DNA from: Sipunculus nudus
Lineage: Eukaryota > Annelida > Sipuncula > Golfingiida > Sipunculidae
DNA length: 64,000 nt
Assembly (NCBI GenBank): GCA_026874595.1
Contig: CM049319.1
Location: 57,608,917 to 57,672,916 of the forward strand
Reading direction: 5' to 3'
Under the pieces are notes generated by a model. That model searched no databases, was not told the DNA's origin, and worked only from the letters and a program-made list of their open reading frames with translations. This document shows, piece after piece, positions 34,155-53,400 of this stretch (positions are counted from its first letter, which is position 1; each line of letters begins with the position of its first letter). The translations under genes were made by a program, and so were the position numbers.

Positions 34155-36960
34155 CAAAATGCAAACAATTCTCTCTTCACGCGCCGACTAAATCTAACAC
34201 TATGCAAACAATACACTCTTCACGCGCCGACTGAATCTAACACTATGCAAACAATACTCTTCACGCGCCGACTAAATCTAACACCATGCAAACAATACAC
34301 TCTTCACGCGCCGACTGAATCTAACACTATGCAAACAATACACTCTTCACGCGCCGACTGAATCTAACACTATACAAACAATACTCTTCACGCGCCGACT
34401 GAATCTAACATTATGCAAACAATACTCTTCACGCGCCGACTGAATCTAACACTATGCAAACAATTCACTCTTCACGCGCCGACTGAATCTAACACTATGC
34501 AAACAATACTCTTCACGCGCCGACTGAATCTAACACTATGCAAACAATACTCTTCACGCGCCGACTGAATCTAACACTATGCAAACAATACTCTCTTCAC
34601 GCGCCGACTGAATCTAACACTATGCAAACAATACACTCTTCACGCGCTGACTGAATCTAACACTATGCAAACAATACTCTTCACGCACCGACTGAATCTA
34701 ACACTATGCAAACAATTCACTCTTCACGCCCGGATAAATCTAACACTATGCAAACAATACTCTTCACGCGCCGACTGAATCGAACACTATGCAAACAATA
34801 CTCTTCACGCGCCGACTGAATCTAACATTATGCAAACAATTCACTCTTCACGCGCCGACTGAATCTGACACTATGCAAGCAATACACTCTTCAAGCGCCG
34901 ACTGAATCTAACACTATGCAAACAATACTCTTCACGCGCCGACTAAATCTAACACTATGCAAACAATACACTCTTCACGCGCCGACTGAATCTAACACTA
35001 TGCAAACAATACTCTTCACGCGCCGACTAAATCTAACACTATGCAAACAATACACTCTTCATGCGCCGACTGAATCTAACACTATGCAAACAATACTCTT
35101 CACGCGCCGACTGAATCTAACACTATGCAAACAATACTCTTCACGCGCCGACTGAATCTAACACTATGCAAACAATACTCTTCACGCGCCGACTGAATCT
35201 AACACTATGCAAACAATACTCTTCACGCACCGACTGAATCTAACACTATGCAAACAATTCACTCTTCACGCGCCAACTGAATCTAACACTATGCAAACAA
35301 TACTCTTCACGCGCCGACTGAATCTAACACTATGCAAACAATACTCTTCACGCGCCGACTGAACCTAACACTATGCAAACAATTCACTCTTCACGCGCCG
35401 ACTGAATCTAACACTATGCAAACAATACTCTTCACGCGCCGACTGAATCTAACATTATGCAAACAATACTCTTCACGCGCCGACTGAATCTAACACTATG
35501 CAAACAATACACTCTTCACGCGCCGACTGAATCTAACACTATGCAAACAATACTCTTCACGCGCCGACTGAATCTAACACTATGCAAACAATACTCTTCA
35601 CGCGCCGACTGAATCTAACACTATGCAAACAATACACTCTTCACGCGCCGACTGAATCTAACACTATGCAAACAATACTCTTCACGCGCCGACTGAATCT
35701 AACACTATGCAAACAATACACTCTTCACGCGCCGACTGAATCTAACACTATGCAAACAATACCCTCTTCGAGCGCCGACTGAATCTAACACTATGCAAAC
35801 AATACCCTCTTCGAGCGCCGACTGAATCTAACACTATGCAAACAATACTCTTCACGCGCCGACTGAATCTAACACTATGCAAACAATACACTCTTCACGC
35901 GCCAACTGAATCTAACACTATGCAAACAATACTCTTCACGCGCCGACTGAATCTAACACTATGCAAACAATACTCTTCACGCGCCGACTGAATCTAACAC
36001 TATGCAAACAATACCCTCTTCGAGCGCCGACTGAATCTAACACTATGCAAACAATACTCTTCACGCACCGACTGAATCTAACACTATGCAAACAATACTC
36101 TTCACGCGCCGACTGAATCTAACACTATGCAAACAATACTCTTCACGCGCCGACTGAATCTAACACTATGCAAACAATACACTCTTCACGCGCCGACTGA
36201 ATCTAACACTATGCAAACAATACTCTTCACGCGCCGACTGAATCTAACACTATGCAAACAATACTCTTCACGCGCCGACTGAATCTAACACTATGCAAAC
36301 AATACACTCTTCACGCGCCGACTGAATCTAACACTATGCAAACAATACCCTCTTCGAGCGCCGACTGAATCTAACACTATGCAAACAATACTCTTCACGC
36401 GCCGACTGAATCTAACACTATGCAAACAATACTCTTCACGCGCCGACTGAATCTAACACTATGCAAACAATACACTCTTCACGCGCCAACTGAATCTAAC
36501 ACTATGCAAACAATACTCTTCACGCGCCGACTGAATCTAACACTATGCAAACAATACTCTTCACGCGCCGACTGAATCTAACACTATGCAAACAATACCC
36601 TCTTCGAGCGCCGACTGAATCTAACACTATAAAAAAAAAACTCTTCACGCGCCGACTGAATCTAACACTATGCAAACAATACACTCTTCACGCGCCAACT
36701 GAATCTAACACTATGCAAACAATACTCTTCACGCGCCGACTGAATCTAACACTATGCAAACAATACTCTTCACGCGCCGACTGAATCTAACACTATGCAA
36801 ACAATACTCTTCACGCGCCGACTGAATCTAACACTATGCAAACAATACTCTTCACGCGCCGACTGAATCTAACACTATGCAAACAATACTCTTCACGCGC
36901 CGACTGAATCTAACACTATGCAAACAAAACCCTCTTCGAGCGCCGACTGAATCTAACACA
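34155..36960. repeat. 41/43-bp satellite-like tandem array, about 67 units
   Basis: The unit is TCTTCACGCGCCGACTGAAT followed by CTAACACTATGCAAACAAT and a short linker. The linker is AC (41 bp), ACAC or TCAC (43 bp), or ACCC with CTTCGAGCGCC in place of CTTCACGCGCC. Variants recur in similar order (for example the CCAACTG variant near 35904 and 36488), suggesting higher-order blocks. Units are nearly identical. Open frames across it are by-products of the unit pair length (84 bp). Confidence 0.95.
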
Positions 36961-44400: not shown

Positions 44401-47400
44401 GAGTCTGAGTGAAAGTCTGTGTCCATGACACATGAGTCCAAGTCCTTAAAGTCTGAGTAGAAGTCCACCTTCTTCGAGTCTGTGTCACTTAAAAGCAGAG
44501 TACAAGTCAAAGTCCAATACACAATTCCTCGATGGAAAGTTTTAAATGATTGTTAAAGATCATCAGGTGTATTTTTAATTTAGTATATATAGAGCTTTTT
44601 TCTACTGTCTCAAGATATACTTGATATGATTTCTCCATTCCTTATATCTTAGTCCGAGGATGAGGCCAGAACCTTCAAGTCAAAGTCAGAGGCAAAGAGT
44701 CCCTGGAAAAGTGGACGCGTGTCAGGACTCAGGTCCAAAAGTCCAACATCACAGATGTATGCAATCCTTACCATAATATGACCCACCTTAAAGATGGATG
44801 TGGATTAGTCGCACAAAGGACCACATGAACTTAGCTACACAAACTCAGAGGATTTCACACATTAAATTCATCCAGAAGGCTCTTTATAATGTCTTAAATG
44901 CATTTGAAACAGCCTTTTAATTGATTTAAAATTTAGGGGATTTTGCCAGCGATGCTACCTTAATGGTAAATGTAGACATAATTAACTCACCCAATAGCTC
45001 TTGGCAGACTGACTAGCTGGTTTGACTGCACCACCAGCTTTGTGAGCTCATGTAAGTAGCCTGGAACAGTCACATAAAATTTATTTTACAAGAGGATTGC
45101 ATATTTGGTTGGCTTCATATTTGCGATTTTCATTTCAGTGTTTTGTAAGGGTTTTTTTTTTTGCCAATTACCAAACAGTAACTTTTTGTGCATAACCATT
45201 GTTATATCAATCACCTATAGATATGCAAGCAATACCTTTACAATTGCAGAGGGGCTAAATAATATTTAAATACTGGGTGAATTGAAAAGAATGCTAATAA
45301 TATTGACATTTCCAGCAATACATGAGATGCCAATGAGGCTATAGAATAAATTGCTGTTCACCCATGCAGATTCTGAATCTTATTCCAAAGGTTTTTATTT
45401 TCTAGATAATTTCCCTAACATGAAAACCAGAGACTTAAAACCCCCGCAAACAAAAAGAAAGGCAACCACAGTAAGTCCATTAGGGGTATTGTGACCTCTT
45501 GACCTCACCAAATATGTGCAGATTTAGCTGAGAACTGAACTCAGGCAAGATATTTAAGTTGTATACCACTAAAGAGAGTTTCATCAAAATCCAAAAAATT
45601 TCTAGTTAGTTATCACAGCAATATCTTATGGTTAACACAATTGGTCTAAACTAAATTATTTTTAACCAGAAAGTCAGCAGAAGACAGCTAAGATAGTTTA
45701 TTTTTTTATTAAGCTTCAAGTATCATACAAAGTCTCTAATGTGCTGGTTCTAAAATATGACTAAAATGTTTAGACATTTACACGAAAATAAATATAATAT
45801 ACAGTATAGCAATTATGTATCTCTAAATCAAGGAAATGTTTAAAAATATGTCTTCAGTCTGTCTTAAAATATTCTTAGTTATCCACAAGTCTCAGATACC
45901 CTGGTAAGTTGTTCCACAATACAAGATCTGCTTATTGAAATGATCTACTGTCAACAGGTTTTTGTTTCTGTAATGGTACTTTTTAGTGTAATTGTTTTAT
46001 GAGGTAAAACAAAGTTCCTTACCTATCTCTTGAGGCAAAGATTCCAACCTGTTTTCTTCTAAATCTAGCACTCTCAATTTCTTCAGATTCCCTATAGTGC
46101 CTGGTAGTCTCTGAAACAGGGAACATTAATTGTAAACACCTTAATTTAAACTAACTGGATTTATACAAAGAGCCCCGCAAATATGCATAATATGCCCATC
46201 TTATGACATCATTAAACAAGTGACCCTTGGGCCATGACGCTCAGCCAACTGACATCTTGATAATATGTCCTTGCACAGAAAACTAATTAAGATAGGTGGC
46301 ATCATAGTTCATGCATTAGCTTAATGTCAATACCCATAAGCACAACAAATCTGATAACAATCAAACCAGCCTTTCATGAGGAATCTGACAATTTGTGTGT
46401 ATTTTGCATGAGTTCTGAGGTGCTCAAACATACCCCATAACTCTGAGAATATAAGTCAGTGTGACCCAATTGCAGGTTCTGGGGAGAACTTTTGAGGAAC
46501 TCTCAGGATGTCAAGTTAGAAGATTCTGGGCCCCATGGTTATGACTTGTGCCCTACTTTGGTATCAAATTTTTAATTATTCTGGGGAGTACTTCAGAGCC
46601 CCATAGGTCAGACAGTATGGGTGAAAGAGACCTAATTTCAGGTTTCCAAGAAGACTTTTCATGGGGCTCCCAGCATGTCAAGTATGAAGATTCTAGGTCT
46701 GGCCGTTGTGATTAGTGCCTTGTAAATAGATGACCGCATCTTTTAAGGTCTCAAAAATAGATAAATACTAGGGACCCAAGGGTCTCGACGCTCAGCTGCA
46801 TTTGTCTATAAGGATATATGTTTATGAGGTTTTCCAAAATATTGGTCCTGTGATCAGTTTGAAGCCAACCTGTCTACCCAAACTGGAGTTATCATCCATA
46901 AACTAATTTGTGAACAGATGGCCCCTGTGACCTTAACCTTTGACCTTGTGACCCCAAAATCAAAAGGAAACTTCCCCTATTGGCAGGTGCACCACATGTT
47001 GATGATTGAAGGATTTAGATGAAAAGTTTGGCTTAAAATGCATCCATAATCTTTCTAAAGTAGTGGTTTATGTGACCTTGACCTCTGATCTCATGACCCC
47101 AGAATCAACAGTTCTTACTTTAGTGGTGGGCCATATAAGTCAAGTTTGAAACCAATATTTCAAACCAAACTGGTGTAATCATCTGGAAACTAATATGTGG
47201 ATTGATGGCCCCCATGACCTTGACCTTTGACCTTGTGACCCAAAAATCCGTAAGTTACTTCCACTTTTGGCAGATGTGCAAAATCTGGAAGATGTTGGTG
47301 GGTTATTGGTGGGTCATATATCAGTCAAAATTGAAACCAATATGTCAATCCAAAATGGAGTTATCATCCAGACACAAATATGTAAACAGATGGGCCCCTG

Positions 47401-50400
47401 TGACCATGACTTTTGACCTTGTGACCCCCAAATCAATCAAGTTCTTCCCCTATTTGCAGCTCAGCAATATGTGCAAGATGGAAGGTTTGGGGTGAAAAGT
47501 TTGGCTTAAAATACATCCACAATCTTTCTAAATAAATGAGTACTGTGACCTTGACCTTTGACCTCATGACAACAAAACTAAACAGAATCTCTACCTATTG
47601 GCAGGTTAGCAATATCCTGAAGATGGAAGGTTTGGGAAGAAAAGTTTGGCTTCAAATGCATATGCATTGTTTTTAAGAAGTTGGTCCTATGACTTTGACC
47701 TTTGGCCTTGTGACCCCAAAATCAAAAGGGTTCTTACATTATTGGTGGGTCATATATTAGTCAAAACTGAAACCAATATGTTAATCCAAATTGGAGTTAT
47801 CATCCAGAAACAAAAATGTAAACAGAGGGGCCCCTGTGACTGTGACCATGACCTTGTGACCCCTAAATCAATCAGGTTCTTCCCTAATTGGCAGCTCAGC
47901 TATATGTGAAAGATGGAAGGTTTGGGATGAAAAGTTTTGCTTAAAATGCATCCACAATCTGTCTAAATTAGTGGGTACTATGACCTTGACCTTTGACCTC
48001 ATGACCCCAAAACTGAACAGAATCTTCCCCTATTGGCAAGTTAGCAAAATCATGAAGATTGAAGGTTTGGGATGAAAAGTTTGGCTTTAAATGCATATGC
48101 ATTCTTTTTAAACAAAGGAGTCCTGTGACCTTGACCTTTGACCGTTGGACCCTAAAATCGACACGGTTCTTCAGAACACTTCTTCAGCGGTGGTGAGTCA
48201 GATATAAGTTAAGTTTGAAAAAATATGTCAAACTAAACTGGGGTTATCATCTGGAAAATAATTTGTGAAGTTGAAAAATGTTCGTTAAAATAACAAAAAA
48301 TACAGGTGACGCCACCACTTTTGGGTTACTGATAAAACTAGTCGTGGTCAATATTCAGGGCAAGATTCATGACAATCCATGCATTAATTATCAAGATATT
48401 GGAGGTTTTGTATTATATTTTTTATTATTCTGGGGGGTACCTTCAAGCCCCATAGCTCGGAGGATATAGGTCACAGTGACCTAATTTCAGGTTTCCAAGG
48501 AGATTTTTTATAGACCTCCTTGGATGTTCACTTAGAAGTATCTAGGACAAGCAGTTACAATTTGTGCCCTGCTAACAGACAGCTTGACGACCGGACGGCC
48601 GGTTGGATGACGGACAAAGTGCCATTCCTTCACCTTAGTTGTCTTACAAGCAGCTGAACTAAAAATTGAAAAAATTTAAAAAATCCAGGAGGTGCCACTA
48701 GTCTGCAAAAAATGATGTAACACCCAATGATCAATATCCATGCAAAGAATCATGGTGATCAATGCATTAGTTGTTCAGATACTTGAGCTTTTGTATCAAA
48801 TTTTCTTTTATTTTTCGGGGGTACTTCGGAGCCCCATAGCTTGAAGAATATGGGTAACAGAGACCTAATAATAGGTTTTCAAGGAGACTTTTCATGGACC
48901 AATCTGGATGTAAAATTAGAAGATTCCAGGTCCAGTGGTTACCATTTGTGCCCTGTTAACAGATGACAGCATCTTTTGAGGTCTCAAAAATAGAGAAAAA
49001 AAATCGTAAAAAATAAAAAAATATATAAGTGACACCACAAGTCTGCAGAAACTGATGAAACACTCCATGAGCAATATCCATGCAAAGAATCATGGTGATC
49101 AATGCATTAGTTGTTCAGATATTTGAGCTTAAAGAATATGGATAACAGAGACCTTATTCCAGGTTTCCAAGGAGATTTTCATGGACCTCTCTGGATACAT
49201 GTAAAGTAAGAAGATTCAAGGTCCAGAGTTTACCATTTGTGCCTTGTTAAAGGACAGACAGCCGGATGGCCAGAAGGCCAGACTGACGATGGACAAAGAG
49301 TGATGGCTATATATATAATTAAATTCAGGTGAGAAACTGTATTGGTCAATATATATAATGAGTTTCATGAATATCCATCGATTTATGATAAGGCATTATA
49401 ATGCCACCAAAGTCTGGTGACCTCTGACCTCATCAAATATGCATGGATTTTGCTGGGAATTGAACTGATGCGAGATATTAAAATGGTTAATATTTTTTTT
49501 TCAAGTTTCACCAAAGTCCATCATATTCCTGATAAGTTTTCACAATGACACCAAAAAGTAGCCGTGTGACCTCTGACCTCATTAAACATGCATGGATTTT
49601 GCCTGTAATTGAAACCTGGGTGATTTAATCTATTGGTAAGTTATTATTAAGAAAATTCATCACAGCCTAGTAGGTTTTTTTATGGTGACACTATAAGGTT
49701 AATTGACAGACAGACCATGGGTACACCATAATACATCCATGACAAGATGTGCATAAAAAATGGGAAAAAATACATTAAAATCAGAGATGTTTACAGTGGA
49801 ACCTGTCTTGAAAGACCACCTATCTTATATGACCACCTGTCTGTTAAGACCGCCCTTGAGTAAACCAAAAGCATTCACACTGGTTAAAACTGACCTGTCT
49901 GATAAGACCACCTGGGAATTAAGACCAACTTTGGCCAGTCCCATGTGTGGTCCCAAAACACAGGTTTCACTGTATATAAATTTCTCCTGTTGTAGACATA
50001 ACTATTATTAATATTAAAATGAGAATGTAACACAAAACTAACATACTACAGAAATCAGACCAATCACTGTGTATAAATTTTAGACCATTAGAAATAGAAC
50101 ATGCTAAAACATTTTAAGTGGGGGTAAGAAATGATCTTTATATTTATCAAATTATTTACTTTTTGCATAAGGGTAAGAATACATAGCTAGTTAAGGTTTA
50201 TAAGCAAAAAGTTAAAAATTAATACAATTTCATGTAGACATCAAAATGTAAACAAAAGTCAATTTAAACTTATTCTGCTGATAGTACACTTGGATGTAAA
50301 GGAAAAATTAACACCTACATACATTCTCTAATATAAAATCTGCAAAATGCAACTTTCACTGAGTATCTTGCTGGGTCTGAGAACCTCGTGTATGTAATGC

Positions 50401-53400
50401 AACTTGCGTAGGTTGTTGCTGAGGTGAAGAACCTCCAGTATATAACATACCTTGAGTAGGTAGTTGCTGAGGCTGAGAACCTCCAGTGTATAACATACCC
50501 TGAGTAGAATGTTGTTGAGGCTAAGGCCAAAAAAAATAAAAGGTATGGTTCTCAGGCAATGCCTGCGTCAATTTTAACCCCCCGCGTCAAAAATTTTTTT
50601 TGGATTTTTTTTTATGTTGTGCTTTTACCTGTTTAGCAAAAAAAATTGTTATTTTCATGCTTTTCCATGATCATATGATATTTTATCAAAACATTCAAAA
50701 CATTTTTTGGCCTAAGAACCTTCAGTATATAACATACCTTGATTAGGTTGTTGTTGAGGCTAAAAACCTCCAGTATATAAAAATGTATACCTTGAGTTGG
50801 TTGTTATTGAGCCTGAAAACCTCCAGTATAAAACACCCTGAGCAGATTATTGTTGATGCTAAGAACCTACAGTATATAACATACCTTGAGTTAGATGTTG
50901 AGGCTGAACACCTCCACTATATAACATACCTTGAGTTAGATGTTGAGGCTGAACACCTCCACTATATAACATACCTTGAGTTAGATGTTGAGGCTGAACA
51001 CCTCCACTATATAACATACCTTGAGTAGGTTGTTGCTGAGAACCTCCAGTATATAACATACCCTGAGCAGGTTGTTGCTGAGAACCTCCAGTATATAACA
51101 TACCCTGAGCAGGTTGTTGCTGAGGCTGAGAACCTCCAGTATATAACATACCCTGAGCAGGTTGTTGCTGAGAACCTCCAGTATATAACATACCCTGAGC
51201 AGGTTGTTGCTGAGAACCTCCAGTATATAACATACCCTGAGCAGGTTGTTGCTGAGAACCTCCAGTATATAACATACCCTGAGCAGGTTGTTGCTGAGAA
51301 CCTCCAGTATATAACATACCCTGAGCAGGTTGTAGCTGAGGCTGAGAACCTCCAGTATATAACATACCCTGAGCAGTTTGTTGCTGAGGCTGAGGACCTC
51401 CAGTATATAACATACCCTGAGCAGGTTGTTGCTGAGGCTGAGAACCTCCAGTATATAACATACCCTGAGCAGGTTGTTGCTGAGGCTGAGGACCTCCAGT
51501 ATATAACATACCCTGAGCAGGTTGTTGCTGAGGCTGAGAAGCTCCAGTATATAACATACCCTGAGCAGGTTGTTGCTGAGGCTGAGAACCTCCAGTGTAT
51601 AACATACCCTGAGCAGGTTGTTGCTGAGGCTGAGAAGCTCCAGTATATAACATACCCTGAGCAGGTTGTTGCTGAGGCTGAGAACCTCCAGTATATAACA
51701 TACCCTGAGCAGGTTGTTGCTGAGGCTGAGAACCTCCAGTATATAACATACCCTGAGCAGGTTGTTGCTGAGGCTGAGAAGCTCCAGTATATAACATACC
51801 CTGAGCAGGTTGTTGCTGAGGCTGAGAACCTCCAGTGTATAACATACCCTGAGTAGGTTGTTGCTGAGGCTGAGAAGCTCCAGTATATAACATACCTTGA
51901 GTTAGTTGTTGAGGCTGAGAACCTCCAGTATATAACATACCTTGAGTAGATTGTTGCTGAGGCTGAGGACCTCCAGTTTCTGGAGATTCTGGATATCATC
52001 TGGTATCTTCTGGAGCTGGTTGGTGCTCAGATTCAGCTCAACCATATTCACCCACGTCCCAACATCTGGAATATAATAATTTTTATACTAAAAATAAAAG
52101 TTTTAATTCATTTGACAATACAGCTTCTCTTTTCCTTCTGAAAACTAATAGGTGTCAGGTGTAAGAAAAGAAATTATACATATAAAAATTCTTCTTCTTT
52201 TTTTTTAACTGAAAGAAAAATGGTGTATAACCATCTGTTCTTTTGATTTTACTTTTCCTCTTTAAATTATAAAACAAATATATCCAAGATCATATGTATA
52301 CTTCAAACAAGGTTAAAATTTATCACATGAAATAAACACAGATATGGATTTTCCATGAAACTGTGCAACTGCCAAAATATTAAAATATTAGGTTTAGATA
52401 GGTTGACCTTTTCCACTACGCTAGAGACATCTATTGGTGGCTATTGACACTTATAGTAAACAGGCAATGCTGACTGAAATGACCAAAACCAAGCAGTAGA
52501 CAATTACATGTAGTGCTCATGCTCTTTGGAAGGGTCTATTATACATGATATGTTAAAATATCATACCTAATGGAAGTGAAGTCAGCTGGTTGTCTCTCAT
52601 GTTGAGCTTTGTCAAGTATTTGGCTCGTGAAAAGATTCCGAACGGGATCTTGTTGATTTCATTGTGCTCCATGTTTATGGTCTATAAAGATACAGAAAGA
52701 AATCAATGATATATTTTATTTTGTGCCAACACATATCTCTACATCTGGCTTTCTGCTAGAAAAAATTTACTATGAAGGACTACGAAAGAGTGATAACATG
52801 CTGTGTCAATCAACAAAGTTAGTCATTAAACAAATTTCTATTGAGATGACCACAAGCTAATTCTTGTGGGAAGTTTAAGTGATAAACAAGGGTACTGCTA
52901 ACAGAAGCATCCCCTTGCACAGGATCATAATTAGACTGAGTGTATTATACAGTGTGAAAATCAGAAGGACAGTTCTGTGACCCTGTGACCTCATAAAAGA
53001 TATAGTTCATCACCTGATGGTTGGGGAGTTTTTTGTGAAAGATGAAAGGTTTTGCTCGAGTGGGTTGGCTTAAAATGTGTCCACAAGCTTTTTTAAGACG
53101 GGTCCTGTGGCCATGACCTTGGACCCAATGACCTAAACTCAATAGAATTCTTCATCTGTGGATTCATGAGCCATATGTGAAAGATGAAAGGTTATGGTAA
53201 AATGGCTGAACTTAAAATGAGCCAATTCTGTGGACAGATGGACTGATGGAAAGACGCATGAATGGAGGCTTACTATGTCCACTCCTGCAAATTTGTAGAG
53301 AAGGGATTATCACCATGGATTTGTTTACTAGCAAATGTTGAAATCATCATTTAAACATCTTATCTTAAACTTCTGATGAGTCCCCTCTTTTGGTTTTCAT

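Follow-up and report, generated by a model that had tools for sequence, protein, structure and literature searches.

A probable mirage minisatellite at an exon/intron junction of SHOC2 in Sipunculus nudus

Introduction

Tandem repeats across exon-intron boundaries have been described in amphioxus as mirage minisatellites, or mirages, in Adh3, the globins BflGb6/BflGb9 and troponin C and, in imperfect form, in PGBD5 (PMC3087553; PMC3902484). The units of amphioxus mirages are 10-160 bp long, homogenised in the interior of an array and excluded from homogenisation at its edges (PMC3087553; PMC3902484); the mirages reportedly do not interfere with splicing, and that of Adh3 reportedly varies even somatically (PMC3087553). 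In human, the notation of a variable number tandem repeat (VNTR) of CBS, c.1444_1467+7(16_21), implies units of 24 nucleotides from the exon plus 7 from the intron, in 16-21 copies (PMC2630376); this VNTR lies at the exon 13/intron 13 boundary, and higher repeat numbers were reported together with lower CBS activity (PMC5188458). Minisatellites at exon-intron boundaries were also reported in human duplicated genes, with 27 intron modifications (PMC2812944). No report of mirages in molluscs was found in the open-access literature searched; in a TSSK1-like gene of abalone a 27-bp minisatellite lies in an intron (PMC6905558), its relation to a junction being unstated there. The subject of the present report is an array of exon/intron units that directly follows an exon of SHOC2 in 64,000 nucleotides of Sipunculus nudus DNA, hereafter the window (contig CM049319.1 of assembly GCA_026874595.1, forward strand, G000:C14:57608917-57672916; the assembly comprises 1.43 Gb in 153 contigs).

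It is probable that the SHOC2 array is a passive intronic mirage minisatellite, whose founding duplication chanced to straddle the exon/intron junction and which is spliced out from the first donor. The same architecture recurs in other genes of this genome.

The SHOC2 junction and its array

The identity of the host gene follows from the exon peptide, which aligns to human SHOC2 399-438 (phmmer search of PDB; nine SHOC2 sequences, E 5.7e-34 to 7.9e-33). On the minus strand the exon end and intron start read ...CTACTCAAG/GTATGTTATATA, where the slash, here and below, marks the junction. Because the next exon, preceded by TTTCAG, opens at 46110 in phase, the array-bearing intron is 51940-46111, with a length of 5830 bp and phase 0. 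When the genome was searched with the peptide of both exons, 63 matches were listed, and none outside these two exons exceeded 50% identity among the best 150 of 432 candidates scored; thus no SHOC2 paralogue was seen among the matches listed. The features of the locus, in window positions, are the following.

51941..52065, minus strand: SHOC2 exon of 125 nt, whose 3' end is the first repeat copy (match to human SHOC2 399-438; acceptor ttccag before 52065).
51929..51976, minus strand: founder unit U0, made up of 36 nt of exon end and 12 nt of intron start and holding the authentic donor AAG/GTATGT at 51940 (unit alignment).
50738..51940, minus strand: 26 contiguous donor-bounded units, of which units 1-24 have 42, 45 or 48 nt and units 25 and 26 have 46 and 53 nt; units 24-26 are decayed (unit-by-unit reading; Tandem Repeats Finder, TRF).
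51902..51904, minus strand: in-frame TAA in unit 1, downstream of the real donor.
51062..51847, minus strand: homogenised core, units 3-19, with donors AGG/GTATGT of slightly weaker U1 pairing than the real donor (unit alignment, pairing scores).
50526..50711, minus strand: a dispersed repeat inserted in unit 27, its length judged by eye at about 186 bp, which splits the array (genome copies, BLAST).
50354 (about)..50498, minus strand: distal copies 28-30, past the insertion (unit-by-unit reading).
46023..46110, minus strand: next SHOC2 exon, preceded by TTTCAG and in the same phase as the upstream exon.

The main array was delimited by TRF at 50715-51977 (period 48, 27.2 copies, score 1662), and a second block of 3.2 copies at 50368-50522. 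An earlier note on this DNA had described an array of exon/intron units directly after the real donor, and this is borne out, with 26 contiguous units, an interrupted 27th and about three more; the observation is real, far beyond chance, and was in the main correctly read. The 48-bp unit of 36 + 12 nt given there holds for the founder, whereas clean units are 42, 45 or 48 nt long, and the GTATGT ascribed to each unit is found at 27 of the 30 unit starts, the real donor included (the exceptions being 50836, 50790 and 50403). Units of the 42-nt class are without one of two CTCAGC-like blocks and those of the 45-nt class without three bases near a CAACAA run; 3- and 6-nt repeats inside the unit account for lengths divisible by three, and slippage within the unit can explain them. 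A pattern of 22 bases from the unit, with at most two mismatches allowed, matched 28 times genome-wide, 27 of these at the SHOC2 locus and the 28th with two mismatches, and the unit thus appears confined to this locus as far as searched.

Founder and turnover of the units

In its exonic half the core consensus departs from the exon at four codons, three of them synonymous and the fourth a K>R, so the core still encodes the exon peptide apart from that one change. Since the exon peptide is conserved (human LEVLILSNNLLK), the exon is the source of the repeat, and the real exon/intron junction, as the earlier note had proposed, founded the array.

The units have turned over unevenly. Units 3-19 lie 0-4.2% from the core consensus, unit 1 lies 8.9% from it, and units 21-26, 28 and 29 lie 6-28% from it. 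The proposal that the exon-proximal units are the freshest, with expansion driven from the exon side, did not survive this comparison: the Spearman correlation of position with distance to the exon is 0.24 (p 0.27) for units 1-23 and -0.16 (p 0.49) for units 1-20, and the isolated distal unit 28, at 6.2% from the exon, is as close to it as any of units 3-19. A freshness gradient was accordingly rejected. The order of variants in units 2-6 nearly recurs in units 7-11, by eye a 240-bp block duplication of five units, and similarity among units 2-13 is highest at a lag of 2 (p 0.014) and of 5 (p 0.033; both from shuffling, uncorrected for the seven lags examined). A homogenised interior with excluded edges is the usual minisatellite pattern rather than growth out of the exon.

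The distal end was interrupted by a dispersed repeat, of which at least 39 further copies exist in the genome at 74-87% identity (best 40 of 3198 candidates scored). Its inverted GCCAAAAAA...TTTTTTGGC-like ends, flanked on either side by CTTAG, recall a small DNA transposon; BLAST to seven copies of the repeat spans only about 50700-50519, and the ends of the insertion are therefore approximate. Because this repeat splits unit 27, what had looked like separate decayed copies are the far end of one array.

These details also bear on whether the array, or its length, might be an artefact of assembly. Near-identical tandem units are prone to error and a single assembly is concerned; however, private variants in a set order, units of three length classes and an inserted repeat are not what a collapse or stutter would produce, an assembly of 1.43 Gb in 153 contigs was likely made from long reads, for which 1.6 kb is short, and the same structure arises independently in other genes. 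An artefact is therefore considered very improbable.

The exon's CAAG/GT was kept by units 1, 20-23, 25, 26 and 28, while units 2-19 and 24 have CAGG/GT. Copies that still end like the exon would suit a further model, put forward by the amphioxus authors, in which duplicated AG/GT junctions lead to intron gain (PMC3087553) and the present copies would be a step to a new exon or intron. However, no use of an acceptor inside the array is known and most of the array has CAGG/GT instead of AG/GT, which leaves this model little credence, somewhat less than an assembly artefact.

Donor strength and stop codons

Donor strength was expressed as the ViennaRNA pairing energy to U1, not as a trained splice-site score. 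On this scale the founding donor at 51940 (-6.8 kcal/mol, with T at +4) is the weakest of seven SHOC2 donors scored, the six others, at exons chosen by frame (59016, 58020, 56851, 55102, 46022 and 44990), having values of -11.8, -11.3, -12.1, -9.6, -10.2 and -10.4 kcal/mol. None of the 29 other unit starts is stronger than the real donor: 19 have -6.2 kcal/mol, seven are equal and three are weaker through decay. Non-majority letters make up 11 of 234 positions in the donor columns versus 59 of 964 elsewhere (p 0.53), and as the donor columns vary like other columns, there is no sign of selection either for or against the array donors. GT sites in the intron outside the array reach -8.5 kcal/mol (228 scored). 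Occlusion of the array donors by RNA structure was considered and is unsupported, the real donor ranking 7th or 5th of 27 in predicted accessibility.

The earlier note had suggested that the array acts as a bank of decoy donors that titrates U1, slows splicing or makes SHOC2 dosage depend on copy number. In its fullest form, U1 binding would slow or divert splicing, and dosage would fall with copy number via transcripts that stop in unit 1. The TAA reported in the first copy in the SHOC2 frame was confirmed at 51904-51902, and use of any donor after the first brings it into frame after 36 added nucleotides; the real donor is weak, and seven of the other unit starts equal it. The human CBS analogue, with lower activity at more 31-bp repeats (PMC5188458), makes a regulatory role possible, although nothing in the sequence favours it. 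A functional decoy array would be expected to have donors that are equally strong and preferentially conserved, whereas 22 of the 29 donors are weaker, seven equal and none stronger, and their columns show no preferential conservation. Stronger GT sites, moreover, already occur elsewhere in the intron, the real donor does not stand out in predicted pairing, and the same structure recurs in unrelated genes. U1 is so abundant that its global titration by 27 sites per transcript is implausible. On balance a decoy bank is regarded as unlikely.

Translation of the array, whether as a different end of SHOC2 or in a frame other than that of SHOC2, would find some encouragement in the core being open in all three sense frames, in open stretches of 306, 339 and 378 aa that cross the array, and in the multiples of three among units 1-24. 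However, a TAA closes the SHOC2 frame in unit 1, the four unit sequences compared show replacements in that frame such as K>R, V>L, N>K and N>Y, and no upstream exon joining the other frames was seen on reading, with no further search made. A coding array was rejected on the stop and the amino-acid changes between units, and is no more credible than the intron-gain model.

Similar arrays elsewhere in the genome

The genome was scanned on the donor side only, for three AGGTRAGT at a spacing of 22-52 (2396 places) and for three AGGTATGT, the first AAGG (4462 places). About 100 listed places per motif were read and, by our grouping, form 13 + 16 = 29 arrays, and the 5' flanks of all 29 were fetched; 40 open stretches of at least 18 aa end at the first donor, in 25 of the 29 loci. 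Four arrays follow exons with strong protein matches (FBXL17, AKT, ABCC and ABCG2), the exon tail being the first copy, and two more follow weaker matches.

L057: FBXL17, E 1.4e-29; unit of 53 nt with 47 exonic nt.
L052: ABCG2, E 3.7e-24; unit of 59 nt with only 6 exonic nt, a borderline case.
L056: AKT, E 6.5e-13; unit of 38 nt with 24 exonic nt; the real donor lies one unit upstream of the first searched motif.
L049: ABCC2/MRP1, E 8.7e-10; unit of 42 nt with 29 exonic nt.
L046: PH domain, weaker match, E 0.0015; 21 exonic nt of a 30-nt unit.
L042: alpha-catenin-like, weaker match, E 0.0081; 36 exonic nt of a 58-nt unit.

The AKT peptide had no match at a cut-off of 1e-15 and was found once the cut-off was loosened. 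The six gene-linked arrays have periods of 30-59, four of which are not multiples of three. Past the real donor the first in-frame stop comes after 45 nt in AKT, 5 nt in FBXL17 and 73 nt in ABCG2; the ABCC array has none in the 277 nt read, and a repeated peptide would be contributed by its 42-nt unit. In four of the five genes read, SHOC2 included, splicing at a downstream donor would therefore bring an early stop. The remaining 23 of the 29 arrays are unproven or not at exons. Among them are exon-like flanks without a match at E 0.1 or better, at L050, L041 and L061 (searched against Pfam), L051 (Pfam and NCBIfam), L054 (Pfam and PDB) and L063 (Pfam, NCBIfam and PDB, the best at 0.8), which are candidate, unproven mirages. 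Extrapolation by the length covered gives, as rough figures that include arrays not at exons, some 155 and 38 donor-motif arrays genome-wide, with the caveat that the place lists may put one strand first, in which case only half of the final contig in each list might be covered. SHOC2 is not alone; its array is one of several mirages in this genome.

To gauge whether junctions are favoured as founders, the 65 places of an arbitrarily extended motif, AGGTRAGTNNACTGA, were drawn on, and the first 40 of them, not screened for arrays of their own, served as a yardstick of dispersed motifs. Pfam was scanned at E 0.01 rather than with gathering scores, and peptides shorter than 20 aa were dropped (4 of 40 from arrays, 3 of 45 from single motifs). 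An upstream peptide was recognised for 4 of 29 arrays (Pkinase, ABC_tran, ABC_membrane and LRR_6; 36 of 40 peptides scanned) versus at most 5 of 40 dispersed motifs (MCM, V-set, BRF1, Carboxyl_trans and NADH_oxidored, one each; 42 of 45 peptides scanned). In this small test there was no sign that junctions are favoured or avoided (Fisher p 1.0), and arrays recur in other genes at about the rate at which donor motifs generally sit at recognisable exons. A first single-motif set, L066-L085, consists of 20 places, all forward-strand and from the first Mb of C1, with eight open stretches and one Pfam match, a low-complexity minisatellite reading; as it represents one chromosome end it was left out of the main comparison, and with it added the figures are 4 of 29 versus 5 or 6 of 60 (p 0.47 or 0.72).

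An enrichment of donors among array founders is not claimed, because raw place counts are dominated by a few long arrays. Single AGGTRAGT motifs occur less often than their reversed counterpart (79,667 vs 99,240), and on C1 up to 7.57 Mb there are two donor arrays versus four control arrays among the places listed. The place counts for AAGGTATGT, 4462 vs 95, were not used as evidence either, since they probably reflect one or a few large satellites on one strand.

Three further repeats were observed. Places with three AAGGTATGT-type motifs number 4265 on the reverse strand versus 197 on the forward strand, which suggests one or a few very large satellites with a donor-like motif. L067 (G000:C1:63541-63961) is a single AGGTRAGT place within a repeat whose long open reading is basic, with RRHKPNQV-like repeats. 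The window itself has a large 41-bp minisatellite of about 67 copies at 34159-36959.

Discussion

It is probable that the SHOC2 array arose as an ordinary minisatellite, founded by a duplication across the exon/intron junction. The authentic exon end and its donor would have been retained as the first copy through selection on the protein, while the later copies, lying inside the intron, would have been turned over by unequal exchange, slippage or conversion; they would be free of coding constraint and removed with the 5.8-kb intron. The first donor would be used owing to exon definition and to its being the earliest transcribed, and leakage to the array donors would presumably be low and cleared by nonsense-mediated decay. 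An effect on dosage would presumably be absent.

Several points weigh against this passive origin and behaviour. That the first donor alone is used is an inference, and the copy number of the array comes from one assembly only. The human CBS array shows that such a repeat can associate with a change of activity (PMC5188458). The lengths of units 1-24, all divisible by three, might reflect a constraint on coding, although repeats inside the unit account for them. The yardstick of dispersed motifs is a small sample, and matched to the motif the comparison comes down to 1 of 13 arrays versus 5 of 40 places (p 1.0). Finally, whole-genome places with three AGGTRAGT outnumber those with the reversed motif (2396 vs 1472), a difference in which a few long arrays dominate.

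A bolder reading is also conceivable, although it seems doubtful, if less so than a decoy bank: junction-founded minisatellites would be a genome-wide class here, with about 190 arrays extrapolated for the two donor motifs and a fraction of them at real exon ends of conserved genes, in each of which the first donor must win and residual leakage ties SHOC2/AKT dosage to repeat number. If this were so, the genome would be a natural experiment in the choice of 5' splice sites among near-identical donors.

Each such array pits a real donor against many copies of itself, a situation otherwise built by hand in minigenes; if the gene works, the first donor must win. With this structure present in several conserved genes of a single genome, the known range of mirages would reach far past amphioxus. 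The recurrence also suggests that mirages arise wherever minisatellites do, not by a junction-specific process, and offers many loci for measuring splice-site choice and the effects of repeat length on dosage.

Comparison with known systems

The earlier note knew of no described case exactly like this one; the amphioxus mirages (PMC3087553, PMC3902484) and the 31-bp VNTR of human CBS (PMC2630376, PMC5188458) are, however, of the same kind. Other repeats are more distant. The 38-bp VNTR in intron 6 of TERT is likewise intronic and its repeat number affects splicing, but it lies more than 1 kb from any junction, acts by RNA:RNA pairing and is not founded on a splice site (PMC3948165). The length of the MIR137 VNTR goes with splicing too, but the splice sites reportedly lie in pre-miR-137 sequence rather than in the repeat (PMC6692358), and it was set aside. 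In the parts available, accounts of Lucina haemoglobin genes (PMC4732748) and earthworm metallothionein repeats (PMC12783039) contain nothing matching. Boundary repeats of human duplicated genes, unlike the SHOC2 array, are short (on average 30-bp units and four copies) and alter exon limits in recent paralogs (PMC2812944). The CBS VNTR resembles the SHOC2 array in that each copy carries a donor, and differs from it in that its units are invariably 31 bp and its polymorphism has been measured in populations (PMC2630376, PMC5188458).

Several features are shared with the amphioxus mirages. The SHOC2 units likewise hold an exon end and an intron start (36 + 12 nt), the authentic boundary is one end copy and the rest are intronic (the exon ends at 51941 and the next begins at 46110), the splice signal is present in many but not all copies (GTATGT in 27 of 30), and the interior is concerted (units 3-19, 0-4.2%) with the edge units excluded (6-28%). 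Copy number differs, with about 30 in the SHOC2 array versus 6 and 3 in two amphioxus BflGb6 haplotypes. By its sequence the SHOC2 array belongs to the mirage minisatellites, and what the present analysis adds is their further occurrence in this genome, in several genes.

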